Shown here one piece after another: positions 21,953-33,672 of a DNA stretch of 64,000 bases; position 1 is the stretch's first letter; each line of letters opens with the position of its first letter. Source of the stretch: Desulfovibrio desulfuricans (GTDB taxonomy: Bacteria > Desulfobacterota > Desulfovibrionia > Desulfovibrionales > Desulfovibrionaceae); the NCBI RefSeq assembly GCF_004801255.1, contig NZ_CP036295.1, positions 867,001 through 931,000 of the forward strand, given 5' to 3'. The notes under the pieces were generated by a model. That model made no database searches, was not told the DNA's origin, and saw only the letters and a program-made list of their open reading frames with translations. The translations under genes were made by a program, and so were the position numbers.

Positions 21953-22627
21953 ATGAAGTTGTTCCGCCGTGTTTTTCTGTTGCCGCTGGTGCTGTTGCTG
22001 GGCGGGCTGGGTGCCGCCTGCGTTACCTCCGGCCCGCAGAAGGCCCTCAACGATGTGGCTGACGCCCTCAGTAAAAATGACGGCGCGGCTTTTTTGGCGC
22101 AACTGGACATGAAGCCTTTTGCAACCAACCAGATTAAAAACATGACTCATGAAGATCAGGCCCTTAATGCGCTGGATTCCATGGGGCGCATGCTTGGGCT
22201 GGGCGGTATGGAAGATCTGCTGGGCAGCGTGGTGGATATGCAGGCCCGGCTGCAGAAGCAGTATATGCGCGGCGTGAGCACTGGCGAGCTGGTGGCGCAG
22301 TGCTCCAAGGCTGATACCCCCGATTGCCCGTGGGTTCCCGAAAGCCTGAAAAACGCCCAAATTACCGAGCTTGGCGACGATGCCGCCGTGGCGCAGGTTA
22401 CTACGCCTGCCCGCATGACAAGCTGGCTTGCCCTGCGCAAGACGGGCGAAAAGTGGCTTGTGGTGGGCCAGGCTGTGATGGAGAGCACGGCCCGCGAGTA
22501 TGCGGTGCAGAAGGCTCCTGCGGTGCCGGCCAAGCCTGCGCCGGTGACGCCCACGCCGAGGGAAGCGCCGGAAACGACCCCCGTGCCGGGAAATCGCGCC
22601 GACAATCAGGGTGTAAGCAAGATATAG
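21953..22627 (+). CDS. Putative lipoprotein of unknown function
   Basis: A 224-residue exported protein. The N-terminus (KLFRRVFLLPLVLLLGG, then LGAAC) is a lipoprotein signal with the lipid-bearing cysteine at about residue 23. The mature part is helical at first, then a beta-rich region, and ends in a 40-residue proline-rich tail. The start of the mature part (SGPQKALNDVADALSKNDGA) recalls small-domain proteins with a NTF2-like or DUF2939-like pattern, but I cannot assign a family. GCGAGG precedes the start. It is followed directly by the first repeat array. Confidence 0.7.
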   Translation: MKLFRRVFLLPLVLLLGGLGAACVTSGPQKALNDVADALSKNDGAAFLAQLDMKPFATNQIKNMTHEDQALNALDSMGRMLGLGGMEDLLGSVVDMQARLQKQYMRGVSTGELVAQCSKADTPDCPWVPESLKNAQITELGDDAAVAQVTTPARMTSWLALRKTGEKWLVVGQAVMESTAREYAVQKAPAVPAKPAPVTPTPREAPETTPVPGNRADNQGVSKI

Positions 22628-22670
22628 GGCGTGCAGCAAGAGGTCTCTGGAAAATATTTCGTTTTGTCGG

Positions 22671-23743
22671 GGTGGGTGAGCCCGTCGGGCTGATTTACGC
22701 AAACCCGACTTTTTCGGCCTGAGCTGCGTTAAAATCCTGTTTTTGATGCTCACGTACATGAGTACGCTGCGCTCAAAGACAGGATTTTTCCTTGTCAGGC
22801 CGAAAAATGCGTATTTTGCAAATAACCCAACACCAGCCATCGCCTTCGCATTCGCTCCGGCGAGTATAAGGAAGGCGGCGCGACGACCTGCTTTTGATGG
22901 CGAGTATCTTTCTTAACTTGCCAGCTATACGCCTCATTTTGTTTGGACTGGGTGCAGGCCGGGGTAAATATCCGTGGGCAGAGGGTAGAAAAAGACTGCG
23001 GAAGGCAGGGGAGCGGCGTCAGCGGGGTGGGTGAGCCCGTCGGGCCGATTTACGCAAACCCGACTTTTTGGGCCTGAGCTGCGTTAAAATCCTGTTTTTG
23101 ATGCTCACGTACACGAGTACGCTGCGCTCAAAAACAGGATTTTTCCTTGTCAGACCGAAAAATGCGTATTTTGCAAATAGCCCAACAGCAGCCATCGCCT
23201 TCGCATTCGCTGCGGCGAGTATAAGGAAGGCGGCGCGACGACCTGCTTTTGATAGCGAATGAATTTTTCTAACTTGCCAGCTATACGCCTCATTTTGTTT
23301 GGCCTGGGTGCAGGTCGGAGCAAATATCTGTGGGCAGAGGGTAGAAAAAGACTGAGGAAGGCTGGGGAGCGGCGTCAGCGGGGTGTGTAAGCCCGTCGGG
23401 CCGATTTACGCAAACCCGACTTTTTGGGCCTGAGCTGCGTTAAAATCCTGTTTTTGATGCTCACGTACACGAGTACGCTGCGCTCAAAAACAGGATTTTT
23501 CCTTGTCAGGCCGAAAAATGCGTATTTTGCAAATAGCCCAACACCAGCCATCGCCTTCGCATTCGCTCCGGCGAGTATAAGGAAGGCGACCCGACGACCT
23601 GCTTTTGATGGCGAATGAATTTTTCTAACTTGCCAGCTATACGCCTCATTTTGTTTGGACTGGGTGCAGGCCGGGGCAAATATCCGTGGGCAGATGGTAG
23701 AAAAAGACTGAGGAAGGCAGGGGAGCGGCGTCAGCGGCGGGGT
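22671..23743. repeat. Repeat array A1: three ~356-bp units
   Basis: Three tandem, nearly identical units at 22671-23025, 23026-23381 and 23382-23738. Each begins GGTGGGTGAGCCCG or close to it. In each, bases +39 to +136 form a long imperfect palindrome: TTTTTCGGCCTGA outside, AAAATCCTGTTTTTGA inside, and CGTAC / GTACG around a four-base loop (unit 1: 22710-22807). A second stem-loop follows, CGCCTTC / GAAGGCG (unit 1: 22841-22877). Short open frames inside the units recur in all copies but lack ribosome sites. Four related units lie at 31658-33010. Confidence 0.9.
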
Positions 23744-23870
23744 GCTATGCCAGTGCCGAAATTATTTACGCAATGTTAGTTGTAGGTACGCAGATAAAAC
23801 TCCAACACAAGACCATGAGTGTCAGGTGAGGGTACAAACCGCCCCATCCTCAAGTATTTTGTTTATCGTT

Positions 23871-24121
23871 GGTATTCGGCTGAAGCGGACGTTGACCAGA
23901 GCGAAAGCAGGGTATGGCATTACGCGTCGCGGAGGGAGATCACCCGATGGAGCGTGGCGAGAGAGGGAAGCTCCCGCAGCAGAAGACGCGTGCCCTCGTC
24001 GTTTGGCGGCAATTGAAAACGCTCTTTAGGGGGTGCTTCGGGGGGGATGCAAGGGGGGCCGCGCAGGGGGCGCAGCCCCATAACCGGCCCCGCCTTGCCG
24101 CGCGCCGCGCAGGCGTCCCAA
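23871..24121. repeat. Dispersed repeat element B, copy 1
   Basis: About 250 bp, beginning GGTATTCGGCTGAAGCGG, nearly identical to 33231-33481 in the same orientation. It has no supported gene. The 127 bp before it (23744-23870) do not match the corresponding spacer in the second locus. Confidence 0.88.
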
Positions 24122-24343
24122 ACTTTGCCGGAGGGCGAAAAATTCGTGCCCGGAGGGCGGCAAAAATTAATCAGTCCGCGCCGCGCAGGCGTCCCAACTT
24201 CGCCGGAAGGCGAAAAATCCGTGCCCGAAGGGCGGCAAAAGTTAATCAGTCCGCGCCGCGCAGGCGTCCCAACTTCGCCGGAGGGCGAAACACCGTGCCC
24301 GAAGGGCGGCAAAAGTTAATCAGCCCGCGCCGCGCAGGCGTCC
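24101..24343. repeat. Tandem repeat C, ~75-bp units
   Basis: Units starting CGCGCCGCGCAGGCGTCCC begin at 24101, 24177, 24252 and 24326 (periods 76, 75, 74); the last is cut off two bases before the hflX stop. Each holds GCCGGAGGGCGAAAAA, CCCGAAGGGCGGCAAAA and TTAATCAG. The second locus has a degenerate version at 33461-33672. Confidence 0.88.
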
Positions 24344-25993
24344 CTAATTCAACACTGTCGGCGTATCCGTCGCCACCAGACTGGCCGGATGCCGCAGCAG
24401 CAACAGTTCAAGCTCGTCCAGCAGGGCCTTGCAGCCGTCGCCCGTCCTGGCGGAGATGGTCAGCGCGTGTGGAAACGCGTCCGCAAGCTCCGCGCGGGCC
24501 GGGGCTTCCAGCTGATCCCACTTGTTCAGAATCATCAGCCGGGGCATGCGGTCCAGTTCCATTTCGGCCAGAATGGTCTCCACAGCGCTTATCTGCTGCA
24601 GCAGATCCGGGTGCGACGCGTCGGCCACATGCAGCAAAAGGTCCGCCGCCTCCAGTTCTTCAAGTGTGGCGCGGAAGGCGTCCATGAGTTCCTTGGGCAG
24701 ATTGCGGATAAAGCCGACCGTATCGGCCATGATGATTTCTTTTTCCGCAGGAAAGCGCAGCCGCCGTGTGGTGGGGTCGAGTGTGGCAAAAAGTTTGTTT
24801 TCGGCCAGCACTTCGGAGCGGGTAAGCGTGTTGAGCAGAGTAGATTTGCCCGCATTGGTGTAGCCCACAAGCGCGGCCAGCGGTATGCCCTGGCGTGACC
24901 GGCGCGCGCGGGTGAACGAGCGCTGGCGGCGCAGCTGGTCGAGCTCTTTGCGAATACGGGCCATGCGCTCGCGTATTTTGCGGCGGTCGGTTTCGAGCTT
25001 TGTTTCGCCGGGGCCACGCCCGCCGATGCCGCCCATAAGACGGTCCATGGCGCGGTTTTTTCCCACCAGGCGCGGCTGGGTGTAGCGCAGCTGGGCCAGC
25101 TCGACCTGCAGCTTGCCCGCGCGGCTCACCGCATGCTGGGCAAAAATATCAAGAATCAACTGGGTGCGGTCAATGACCTTGCGCTCGGTGATGTCGGCGA
25201 GGTTGTGCAGCTGTGCGGGCGAAAGCTCGCCGTCAAACACCATCATGCCCGCGCGGCCTTGCAGGGCCAGCACTTCAAGCTCGGCCACCTTGCCCTTGCC
25301 CATGATCAGGCGCGGGTTGATCTGCGCCACGCGCTGCACCATGCGTCCGGCAATGGTCAGACCAGCGGTGCGGGCCAGCTCCGCCAGTTCGTCCAGATTG
25401 CGCTCCTGAATGATGCGCGGCTGCGTGCTTACCGAGACGAGCATGGCGCGCGGCGTGTCGTCGGCCTCGCGGGCGTCCTCGGCCTTGCGGGCCAGCTCTT
25501 CTTCCAGGGCTTCAGCCGTGGCGACAAACTGCGATTCTGTGCGGTCCCAGGGTTGCGGGGCGTCCATGTGATAGGGCTGCCCGCCGGAGGGCGACGGCAG
25601 CAAGTGGGCGGCCTGCCATTGCACTGGTTCGCCCACCGGGTTGACGGTGAGCGCAACCACTGCGTCCAGCCGCAAAAAGAGCATGTCCATCAGGTCTTCC
25701 TGACTGATGCCGCCAGGCGAGAGGTGGGTGTGCAACAGACGCAGACCGCGCAGGCGTTCCTGCCCGCTGCGGCCGCGCGGCAACTCGGGTATCATGATGC
25801 TGCCTGCTTCGCCCACAATAACCATCTGCACCCGGCCTTTGCGGTCGATAAGCAGCCCTAGCTGCCTGCCCAGTGCGCGTGAAAGCAGCGAGAGTTCCCG
25901 CGCCTGATCGACTGTATAGACTTCTGCCGCCGGAAAACGGCGGTTGAACAACCGGGTGAGTGCTGCAAGCTGGCTCGGTTTGAGCCCTTGCAC
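24344..25993 (-). CDS. hflX: GTPase HflX
   Basis: A 549-residue ribosome-associated GTPase that splits or rescues stalled 70S ribosomes. The N-terminal 150 residues (GLKPSQLAALTRLFNRRFP...) are the extra domain found in long HflX proteins; the HflX domain proper starts near SVSTQPRIIQERNLDELAELA, the linker has GGIGGRGPGETKLETDRR, and the G domain has VGYTNAGKSTLLNTL (G1), DTVGFI (G3) and NKWD (G4). The GTG at 25993 is preferred because GAAGG lies just before it. A TTG at 26071 is open but falls inside a strong hairpin. Confidence 0.92.
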   Translation of the reverse strand: MQGLKPSQLAALTRLFNRRFPAAEVYTVDQARELSLLSRALGRQLGLLIDRKGRVQMVIVGEAGSIMIPELPRGRSGQERLRGLRLLHTHLSPGGISQEDLMDMLFLRLDAVVALTVNPVGEPVQWQAAHLLPSPSGGQPYHMDAPQPWDRTESQFVATAEALEEELARKAEDAREADDTPRAMLVSVSTQPRIIQERNLDELAELARTAGLTIAGRMVQRVAQINPRLIMGKGKVAELEVLALQGRAGMMVFDGELSPAQLHNLADITERKVIDRTQLILDIFAQHAVSRAGKLQVELAQLRYTQPRLVGKNRAMDRLMGGIGGRGPGETKLETDRRKIRERMARIRKELDQLRRQRSFTRARRSRQGIPLAALVGYTNAGKSTLLNTLTRSEVLAENKLFATLDPTTRRLRFPAEKEIIMADTVGFIRNLPKELMDAFRATLEELEAADLLLHVADASHPDLLQQISAVETILAEMELDRMPRLMILNKWDQLEAPARAELADAFPHALTISARTGDGCKALLDELELLLLRHPASLVATDTPTVLN

Positions 25994-29546: not shown

Positions 29547-29667
29547 TACGCCGCATTTTTCGGGCAATCCTCTGTTGTCGTTTTTTTGAACGGCGGCAGC
29601 TTCAGCGGCCTGTCTCAGGCCCGGATCAACCATATATATGCGCCAGCGGCGCTTACAGGAGCAGGAA

Positions 29668-31584
29668 TTGGCAAAAAACCGCGCATTACAGCAGTGGCGG
29701 GTGGAGGATTCCATCGAGCTTTACGGCATCCGTAATTGGGGCGCCGGGTATTTTGACGTGTCGGATGCGGGCGAGGTCGTGATTTGCCCGCAGGGGCCCA
29801 AGGGGCCGCAGGTTTCGATACCAGACGTTATCGCCGGGCTGAAAGAGCGCGGGTATGATATGCCCGTGCTCTTGCGCGTGGAGAATATTCTGGATTCGCG
29901 CATTGCCAATATTCACGAATCGTTCCGCAAGGCCATCAAAAGCCTCAACTACACCGGTTCGTACCGGGGTGTTTTTCCCATCAAGGTCAACCAGCAGCAG
30001 CAGGTTGTGGAAAAAATAGCCCAGTTCGGCTCCACATACCACCACGGGCTTGAGGTCGGCTCCAAGGCCGAGCTCATCGCGGCAGTGTCGCTCATGCGCG
30101 ACCGCGAGGCCTGCATCGTCTGCAACGGCTACAAGGACGAAGAATTTATCGATCTTGGCCTGCAGGCCCTGCGCCTTGGCTTTAACGTGCTGTTTGTTCT
30201 TGAAATGCCCAGCGAGCTGGAAGTGGTGCTCGCGCGCAGCAAGGCCCTGGGCGTACGCCCCAACATTGGCGTGCGCGCCAAGCTGGCCGTGAAGGCCAGC
30301 GGCCACTGGACCGATTCTGGCGGCGAGCGCTCCACCTTTGGCCTGTCGCCCGCCCAGATTGTGGACGTGGTGGACACGCTCAAGGCCAACGACATGCTCG
30401 ACTGCTTCAAGCTGCTGCACTACCACCTTGGTTCGCAGGTTTCCAACATTCGCGACATCCGTACAGGCGTCATGGAAGGCGCGCGCCTTTACGTGGGTCT
30501 GGTGCAGGAAGGCGCGCCCATGGGGTATCTTGACCTTGGCGGCGGTCTGGCGGTGGACTACGACGGCTCGCACACCAACTATGTTTCGTCGCGCAACTAT
30601 ACGCTCGACGAATACAGCGCCGACATTGTCGAAGCCATCATGAGCATCCTTGACGAGCAGAATGTGGCGCATCCGCACATCATCACCGAATCGGGCCGCG
30701 CCACTGTGGCCTATTATTCCGTGCTGCTCTTCAACGTGCTTGACGTCAGCATGGTGGAAGAAGTGCAACTGCCCGACAACCTGCCCGAGGGCACGCCCGA
30801 GCCTGTGCTGAACCTGCGCGAAACTCTTGCCAACATTACCCTGCGCAATCTGCAGGAATGTTATAACGACGCCATCTACTACCGCGACGAAATGCGTCAG
30901 CTCTTTTCCACCGGGCGCGTAAATCTGCGCCAGCGTACCCTGGCCGAGCGGTTTTTCTGGGCCATCATCATGCGCATTGCACAGGAAAAGACGCGCCTCA
31001 AGACGATACCCCGCGACCTCGCCGATATTGATGTGAGCCTTGCGGATATTTATTACGGCAATTTCAGCGTGTTCCAGTCGTTGCCCGACTCGTGGGCCAT
31101 TGACCAGCTGTTCCCGGTTATGCCCGTGCACCGGCTTAAGGAATTTCCTTCGCGGCAGGGCATCATCTCTGACATCACCTGCGACTCTGATGGCCGCATC
31201 GACCATTTTATCGATCCTCAGGGCATGAAGCCCACGCTTGATCTGCACCCCGTGCGCGACGGCGAAGAGTATTATCTTGGCGTGTTTCTTGTCGGCGCGT
31301 ATCAGGAAACGCTGGGCGATCTGCACAACCTTATGGGCGACACCAACGTGGTGTCCATCAGGGTGCGCGACGACGGCAATTACGAGTATGTGCGCGAAAT
31401 CAGGGGCGACTCTGTGGCGGATATACTGAGTTATGTGGAATACGAGCCGCGTCGCATCCTCGAAGATCTGCGCAGCACAGCGGAGCAGGCCGTGAGGCAG
31501 GGGCGTATTTCGCCCAGCGACCGGTTTGCCATTATGCAGGTATTTGAAGACGGCCTGCGCGGGTACACCTATTTTGAACGGTAG
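29668..31584 (+). CDS. speA: Biosynthetic arginine decarboxylase
   Basis: A 638-residue PLP enzyme making agmatine from arginine, the first step of putrescine synthesis. The barrel domain shows FPIKVNQQQQVVEK, whose lysine (K106) binds PLP, LEVGSKAELIAAVSL, and HYHLGSQVSNIRDI; the second domain carries DSWAIDQLFPVMPVHRL and ITCDSDGRIDHFID. The start TTG at 29668 (MAKNRALQQW) is preferred because ACAGGAG lies just before it; an ATG ten codons upstream (29638) is possible. It is followed by the second repeat locus. Confidence 0.94.
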   Translation: MAKNRALQQWRVEDSIELYGIRNWGAGYFDVSDAGEVVICPQGPKGPQVSIPDVIAGLKERGYDMPVLLRVENILDSRIANIHESFRKAIKSLNYTGSYRGVFPIKVNQQQQVVEKIAQFGSTYHHGLEVGSKAELIAAVSLMRDREACIVCNGYKDEEFIDLGLQALRLGFNVLFVLEMPSELEVVLARSKALGVRPNIGVRAKLAVKASGHWTDSGGERSTFGLSPAQIVDVVDTLKANDMLDCFKLLHYHLGSQVSNIRDIRTGVMEGARLYVGLVQEGAPMGYLDLGGGLAVDYDGSHTNYVSSRNYTLDEYSADIVEAIMSILDEQNVAHPHIITESGRATVAYYSVLLFNVLDVSMVEEVQLPDNLPEGTPEPVLNLRETLANITLRNLQECYNDAIYYRDEMRQLFSTGRVNLRQRTLAERFFWAIIMRIAQEKTRLKTIPRDLADIDVSLADIYYGNFSVFQSLPDSWAIDQLFPVMPVHRLKEFPSRQGIISDITCDSDGRIDHFIDPQGMKPTLDLHPVRDGEEYYLGVFLVGAYQETLGDLHNLMGDTNVVSIRVRDDGNYEYVREIRGDSVADILSYVEYEPRRILEDLRSTAEQAVRQGRISPSDRFAIMQVFEDGLRGYTYFER

Positions 31585-31600: not shown

Positions 31601-33010
31601 TAGTTTGGTAGAATATGGCAGGCACGGCTGAGAAAAGGCCGGGGAGCGTCATCGGCGGGTGGGTGAGCCCGTCGGGCTGATTTACGCAAACCCGACTTTT
31701 TGGGCCTGACTGCGTTAGAATCCTGTTTTTGATGCTCACGTACATGAGTACGCTGCGCTCAAAAACAGGATTTTTCCTTGTCAGGCCGAAAAATGCGTAT
31801 TTTGCAAATAGCCCAACACCAGCCATCGCCTTCGCGTTGCTCCGGCGAGTATAAGGAAGGCGGCGCGACGACCTGCTTTTGATGGCGAACGAATTTTTCT
31901 AACTTGCCAGTTCCCCGCTGCTCATGGTTGAGCTGGGTGCAGGCCGGGGCAAATATCTGTGGGCAGATGGTAGAAAAAGACTGAGAAAGGGCAGGGAGAG
32001 CGTCATCAGCGGGTGTGTGAGCCCGTCGGGCCGATTTACGCAAACCCGACTTTTTTGGCCTGAACTGCGTTAAAATCCTGTTTTTGATGCTCACGTACAT
32101 GAGTACGCTGCGCTCAAGAACAGGATTTTTCCTTGTCAGGCCGAAAAATGCGTATTTTGCAAATAGCCCAACACCAGCCATCGCCTTCGCATTCGCTCCG
32201 GCGAGTATAAGGAAGGCGGCGCGACGGCCTGCTTTTGGTGGCGAACGAATTTTTCTAACGTGCCAGTTACCCGTTGCTTATGGTTGGACTGGGTGCAGGC
32301 CGGGGCAAATATCCGTGGGCAGATGGTAGAAAAAGACTGAGAAAGGGCAGGGAGAGCGTCATCAGCGGGTGTGTGAGCCCGTCGGGCTGATTTACGCAAA
32401 CCCGACTTTTTCGGCCTGAGCTGCGTTAAAATCCTGTTTTTGATGCTCACGTACATGAGTACGCTGCGCTCAAAGACAGGATTTTTCCTTGTCAGGCCGG
32501 AAAAATGCGTATTTTGCAAATAGCCCAACACCAGCCATCGCCTTCGCATTCGCTGCGGCGAGTATAAGGAAGGCGACCCGACGGCCTGCTTTTGGTGGCG
32601 AACGAATTTTTCTAACGTGCCAGTTACCCGTTGCTTATGGTTGGACTGGGTGCAGGCCGGGGCAAATATCCGTGGGCAGATGGTAGAAAAAGACTGAGGA
32701 AGGCCGGAGAGCGTCAGCGGCGGGGTGGGTGAGCCCGTCGGGCCGATTTACGCAAACCCGACTTTTTTGGCCTGAGCTGCGTTAAAATCCTGTTTTTGAT
32801 GCTCACGTACATGAGTACGCTGCGCTCAAAGACAGGATTTTTCCTTGTCAGGCCGAAAAATGCGTATTTTGCAAATAGCCCAACAGCAGCCATCGCCTTC
32901 GCATTCGCTGCGGCGAGTATAAGGAAGGCGACCCGACGGCCTGCTTTTGGTGGCGAGCATCTTTTTTAACTTGCCAGTTACCTGCTGCTTATGGTTGAGC
33001 TGGGTGCAGC
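31601..33010. repeat. Repeat array A2: four ~356-bp units plus a partial one
   Basis: Units start at 31658, 32012, 32368 and 32724; the last breaks off near 33010. A partial tail unit (31601-31657) precedes the first. They match array A1 (22671) in the same orientation, with the same palindrome at +39 to +136. Units 32012, 32368 and 32724 carry A-to-G changes in the 3' arm of the inner stem that keep G-U pairing in a plus-strand RNA. It begins 17 bp past the speA stop. Confidence 0.9.
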
Positions 33011-33230: not shown

Positions 33231-33481
33231 GGTATTCGGCTGAAGCGGACTTTGATCAGAGCGGAAGCAGGGTATGGCATTACGCGTCGCGGAGGGAGAT
33301 CACCCGATGGAGCGTAGCGAGTAAGGGAAGCTCCCGCAGCAGAAGACGCGTGCCCTCGTCGTTTGGCGGCAATTGAAAACGCTCTTTAGGGGGTGCTTCG
33401 GGGGGGATGCAAGGGGGGCCGCGCAGGGGGCGTAGCCCCATAACCGGCCCCGCCTTGCCGCGCGCCGCGCAGGCGTCCCAA
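33231..33481. repeat. Dispersed repeat element B, copy 2
   Basis: Nearly identical to 23871-24121, offset by 9360 bp and in the same orientation. It contains GCAGCAGAAGACGCGTGCCC and a G-rich stretch. No supported gene. Confidence 0.88.
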
Positions 33482-33672
33482 CTTCGCCGGAGGGCGAAAA
33501 ATGCCGTGCCCGAAGGGCGGCAAAAATTAATCAGCCCGCGCCGCGCAGGCGTCACTTCACCATTCAGACGAAATCGCGCGCCGCGCAGGCGTCCCAATCG
33601 CCTGTTAGGCGAAAAATGCCGTGCCCGCAGGACAGCAAATTCTAGTTAACCCCGCGCCGCGCAGGCGCAAAT
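33461..33672. repeat. Tandem repeat C, degenerate
   Basis: CGCGCCGCGCAGGCG recurs at 33461, 33537, about 33577 and 33652, with one shortened unit lacking the middle. It ends 8 bp before the stop of the OppF-like gene. Confidence 0.8.

Follow-up and report, generated by a model that had tools for sequence, protein, structure and literature searches.

The ERIC (IRU) elements of enterobacteria are imperfect palindromes of ~100-130 bp that occur in many intergenic copies, with a conserved centre and with pairing kept between copies. Covariation in an alignment commonly counts as the strongest sign that an RNA is functional. When inverted repeats undergo template switching, the arms can be homogenised or the spacer inverted, the two published outcomes (PMC8604942), and the process can also yield compensatory changes in several pairs of a hairpin, as well as loop inversions (PMC8794818).

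Here we describe a repeat found in a stretch of 64,000 nucleotides of the Desulfovibrio desulfuricans genome (hereafter the window). With moderate confidence, we interpret its unit as a dispersed, non-coding, quasi-palindromic DNA repeat, similar to MITEs and ERIC elements and located at gene 3' ends, whose arms are kept complementary mainly by template switching.

Anatomy and distribution of the repeat

The window contains seven units of this repeat (A units), arranged on the plus strand in two tandem arrays with a period of 356. The first array (22668-23744) consists of three units and lies 44 nt 3' of the stop codon of the gene at 21953-22627. The second (31628-33009) consists of about four units, starting at 31658, 32012, 32368, and 32724, and lies downstream of an arginine decarboxylase gene (29638-31584). 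A covariance model identified the palindrome core on the plus strand of every unit, namely at 22692-22827 (unit 22671, 154.8 bits), 23047-23182 (unit 23026), 23403-23538 (unit 23382), 31679-31813 (unit 31658), 32033-32168 (unit 32012), 32389-32525 (unit 32368), and 32745-32880 (unit 32724). The imperfect palindrome that an earlier note on this DNA had placed at 22710-22807 and in each A unit thus recurs in all seven, and in 15 further units of the same genome. Downstream of each A array is another tandem repeat, B, with short GC hairpins and a period of ~75 (CGCGCCGCGCAGGCGTCCCAA...; 24101-24344 and 33459-33667), and a B-like array also follows A units at two other loci (L071 7756-8152 and L076 5240-5599).

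The paired segments of 13 and 16 bp and the short inner stem described in that note are all in place in unit 22671. The 13-bp outer stem, P2, pairs 22710-22722 with 22795-22807, and the 16-bp long stem, P3, pairs 22731-22746 with 22773-22788. Between the two stems is a conserved asymmetric internal loop, with a GCGT motif on its 5' side (22725-22730; usually GCGTCA in the family) and a TTCCTTG motif on its 3' side (22788-22794). The centre, GCTCACGTACATGAGTACGCTGCGC (22748-22772), is near-invariant in the window's clade and contains the inner stem CGTAC/GTACG (22753-22757 and 22762-22766).

For comparison across genomes, we give the name clade D to the genome of the window (G000) together with its close relatives G116, G360, G336, G013, G011, and G204, and refer to G007, G347, G348, G349, G382, and G004 as clade P; a further clade, g246, is another genus of the same bacterial family. 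About 230 bp of the repeat is conserved in the window's clade, and its length in other clades is ~200-300 bp. The parts that remain constant across clades are the asymmetric internal loop with GCGTCA on the 5' side and TTCCTTG on the 3' side (with variants in g246), the centre with GTAC..GTAC, and the T/A runs at the foot, and the stem sequences between these parts vary freely. In P3 the sequence is swapped wholesale between subtypes with pairing kept: clade D contains ATCCTGTTTTT, GTCGCGTTTTT, GCATTTTTTT, GCCGGGATTTT, and others, and in every case the partner arm is complementary. G000 and G013 carry different subtypes at the same place in the arginine decarboxylase locus, and we therefore infer that copies are replaced or converted as blocks. 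In G343 (L200 3471-3583) and G177 (L201 3466-3575), the 3' end of the orthologous arginine decarboxylase gene is occupied by distant relatives of the repeat; both keep the GCGTCA/TTCCTTG loop and differ in the centre (GTACCATAAGAGTACTATCC in G343), and the hairpin in G177 is partly duplicated. In our favoured explanation, the conserved loop and centre are sequences under selection, which probably serve recognition by a putative mobilising or binding protein.

The window's own genome contains 22 complete or almost complete units spread over nine loci, mostly in tandem and with spacers that vary from array to array, and similar copies are present in its relatives. Within the genus, the first covariance model detected the family in 28 of 79 genomes; once widened with divergent members, the model detected it in 66 of the 247 genomes searched from the bacterial family, which belong to 15 of its 44 genera. 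Exact matches to the centre, searched in 297 genomes of the phylum, were restricted to the window's genus. Copy number is highly variable, and the majority of genomes in the genus have few copies or none. Many copies in draft genomes are located at contig ends (L085, L087, L036, L052, and L053); the family probably breaks draft assemblies and is under-counted there.

A search of the window against Rfam at gathering scores returned two tRNAs and no family matching the repeat, for which the best sub-threshold hit reached 21.6 bits vs. the 36 required; the sub-threshold hits (P26 and mir-1954) were taken as chance matches. No match to the repeat was found in the phage and plasmid collections, or in 20,395 E. 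coli records at the sensitivity used, and an exact pattern scan of the genome contigs with GTGGGTGAGCCCGTCGGGC gave unrelated chance hits only. Weak ORF calls over some elements were taken as artefacts. A literature search on described Desulfovibrio repeats returned nothing on point, which is a weak negative as most subscription journals lie outside its coverage. We could not find the repeat described, and it appears to be an abundant, previously undescribed family of a known kind, i.e., dispersed palindromic DNA repeats.

Covariation and template switching

On the plus strand, the palindrome of unit 22671 folds with an MFE of -101.1, whereas its shuffled versions average -70.6 (z -6.36) and none of 200 shuffles reached the same value. 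The minus strand folds equally well (MFE -99.5, z -6.49), and folding by itself is therefore uninformative on the strand. The earlier note had pointed to an A-to-G change in the 3' arm of four of the seven units, turning an A-U pair into G-U on the plus strand, as a hint of selection for a plus-strand RNA. The count of four is correct, but two sites are involved rather than one: units 22671, 32368, and 32724 share the variant CAAAGACAGG, and unit 32012 instead has CAAGAACAGG. Unit 31658 has an A-to-G change in the 5' arm (TTAGAATCC), which likewise gives G.U on the plus strand. As the units are related, the changes in the window amount to approximately three independent events.

A larger alignment does contain the excess of pairing-preserving changes that such selection would predict. 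Two-sided changes are present in 12 of 43 pairs (22 sequences), and direct changes from one Watson-Crick pair to another number 164 in four clades, vs. 100 transition singles. The pairing-preserving change is thus strong, but the strand argument fails. Selection on a plus-strand RNA predicts more G.U than A.C intermediates; the one-step changes in the four clades comprise 56 to G.U and 44 to A.C (p = 0.27), with no significant excess even in clade D (31:26; 3:1 in clade P, 13:10 in g246, and 9:7 in the others). Events were counted per clade by Fitch parsimony, on trees derived from the recombining elements. As a control, RNase P RNA of the genus was treated by the same procedure and gave G.U:A.C ratios of 35:14 in events and 215:20 in cells, and 28 doubles vs. 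49 singles. Read within the limits of parsimony on such trees, of an RNase P structure that is incomplete, and of conversion among copies, the difference in G.U share between the repeat and RNase P events is suggestive only (p = 0.076), and the excess of double changes in the repeat is clear (p = 8e-5).

The second hairpin, CGCCTTC/GAAGGCG (22841-22877 in unit 22671), has only one-sided or broken changes across the family, and 31 units yielded no compensatory pair and no covariation support. It had been described as varying only in its loop, between CTCCGG and CTGCGG; this loop variation is present, but unit 31658 has, in addition, a change from CATTCGC to CGTTGC. The palindrome arms match far better than chance, but the match appears to be mainly the product of DNA copying errors that repair palindromes and therefore does not prove that an RNA is functional.

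Direct footprints of a DNA-level process are found in three copies. Among 162 distinct copies, all but 3 have perfectly paired arms of no more than 19 bp. Two of the exceptions, L187 1836-1971 and L137 4299-4435, have perfect 36-bp arms, a mirrored loop, and a centre inverted against the outer ends, and the other, L164 1798-1933, has perfect 28-bp arms and a mirrored loop. In all three, the loop side opposite GCGTCA is now TGACGC, its exact reverse complement, for which a route through point mutations would need approximately eight correct changes per copy. Replication template switching thus acts on the repeat family, as seen in these three copies, and the exact homogenisation of the loop, accompanied in two of them by inversion of the centre, indicates that DNA copying keeps the arms complementary without selection on an RNA. 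We infer that the same process accounts for most of the covariation in the family.

Mobility, position at gene ends, and competing explanations

The element is multicopy, interspersed, partly amplified in tandem, and insertion-polymorphic at orthologous sites. In clade P, it occupies the leuC-leuA gap of G347 and G349, and the orthologous gaps in G004, G007, and G382 are without the ~290 bp; other copies share 92-98% identity with this element over ~190-200 bp and have unrelated flanks. At this filled/empty site, the single one examined, we found only chance-like matches of 5-7 nt and no clear direct repeat that would represent a target-site duplication. Some loci are common to several species, and much of the set is therefore inherited vertically. 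The search for a mobilising gene, limited to Y1 transposases, found none: Y1_Tnp genes are absent from the window's own genome and from G116, G204, G347, G007, G382, and other high-copy carriers, and we rejected a Y1 transposase as the mobiliser for this reason.

Only 5 of ~123 resolved gaps that contain the element are divergent, with gap orientation based on genes called by a codon-usage script rather than on annotation. In clade D, convergent gaps make up 33 of 43, and the start of the element is mostly 42-95 nt past a stop codon. In co-directional gaps of clade P, 22 copies are antisense to both genes and 7 are sense (loci L141-L152, L253-L272, and L283-L292), a lean that could arise if sense copies within operons are selected against. 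By a relaxed definition, including a relaxed loop length, 54 of 73 sense copies in clade D are terminator-like, vs. 1 of 73 antisense copies, and the corresponding count for sense copies in clade P is 2 of 47; a strict terminator scan gave no hit within the first array's A units. Among sense-side genes in convergent gaps, 5 of 59 have another terminator before the element, a count to be read with the differing lengths of the regions compared. Some relatives that lack the element in the arginine decarboxylase locus have terminator hairpins of the ordinary kind there (L206, L208, L210, and L218; plus-strand entries only). It is plausible that sense copies in clade D act, secondarily, as terminators of the preceding gene.

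These observations bear on several explanations. The clade D spacing from stop codons, the strong sense bias of terminator-like copies, the scarcity of other terminators before the element, and the ordinary terminators of some element-less relatives would all be expected if the unit were a structured plus-strand RNA in the 3' UTR of the upstream gene, functioning as an intrinsic terminator, a 3'-end stabiliser, or a processed small RNA, with the arms paired by selection on the RNA. We regard this as a possible but rather unlikely account, in that both strands fold equally well, G.U changes are not in significant excess over A.C, and the terminator-like form is near-absent in clade P, where most co-directional copies are antisense; the DNA-level account is better supported. 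The strand-symmetric pairing, the invariant centre, and the preference for convergent gaps would also fit a DNA hairpin or cruciform that serves as a site for a chromosome protein (e.g., gyrase or a nucleoid protein, where convergent transcription meets) and is selected for its shape, with mobility unimportant. The great variation in copy number, down to few or none in most genomes of the genus, and the recent dispersal in clade P make such a site very unlikely. Highly improbable, in our judgement, is a REP/REPIN-like nature, with a Y1 (RAYT/IS200-type) transposase moving the units as single-stranded hairpins: like REP sequences (PMC8266576, PMC3116915), the units are palindromes dispersed in intergenic regions at the 3' ends of genes and have a conserved stem mismatch, but they are several times longer than REPs, and the own genome and several high-copy carriers are without the Y1_Tnp gene.

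We favour a dispersed DNA repeat whose arms are maintained mainly by template switching. The element settles at the 3' ends of genes and is nearly absent from divergent (promoter) gaps, and in three copies replication template switching has rewritten an arm to match its partner. The same process, acting between slightly mismatched arms and perhaps aided by a selective advantage of single strands that fold well as the element propagates, would have produced most of the compensatory changes. The putative mobilising or binding protein would recognise the conserved loop and centre, and the sense copies of clade D would double as terminators. Against this explanation, neither a mobilising gene (among Y1 transposases) nor a clear target-site duplication was found, much of the set is vertically inherited, the event counts depend on parsimony with trees of recombining elements, the direct template-switch footprints number only three, and conserved loops combined with freely varying stems fit selection on structure as well. 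We also consider, as an unlikely variant, that the element spreads by folding into a hairpin of single-stranded DNA, with either arm templated by its partner and complementarity renewed in each round by a putative enzyme; if true, such a hairpin-copying element would represent a class of small mobile DNA apart from REPs and MITEs.

Comparison with known systems

The repeat family would probably pass a covariation test, yet it bears the direct footprints of a DNA process that mimics the signal, and it is thus a concrete caution in the search for new RNAs. As its copies are numerous within genomes and can be compared between close relatives, it also provides a natural record of template switching in bacteria.

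Among the described systems, the repeat shares with ERIC elements the size of the imperfect palindrome, the intergenic multicopy state, the conserved centre, and the pairing kept between copies; it differs in its occurrence in another phylum, its tandem arrays, and its asymmetric GCGTCA/TTCCTTG loop, and at the sensitivity used it matched no sequence in the E. coli genomes searched. Like MITEs, it is dispersed, short, and non-autonomous, and its sites are filled in some genomes and empty in others, although no clear target-site duplication was identified here, nor, in a search covering Y1 transposases, a parent transposon. With REP/REPIN sequences and their RAYT transposases it has in common the extragenic palindromes at gene 3' ends, the conserved stem mismatch, and probable mobility, but it is much longer and many of its carriers have no Y1 transposase. 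Intrinsic (bidirectional) terminators are likewise hairpins at gene ends, and the sense copies in clade D have a comparable T-rich foot; the repeat, however, is far larger, repetitive, and mobile, contains conserved loops, and has a foot broken by CC, and its terminator-like form is nearly confined to one of the two clades compared. Finally, the homogenised arms, the inverted loop or spacer, and the compensatory changes in several pairs are those of template-switch mutagenesis in quasipalindromes (PMC8794818, PMC8604942), which was described there in single hairpins or rRNA and is recorded here in the many copies of a repeat family.
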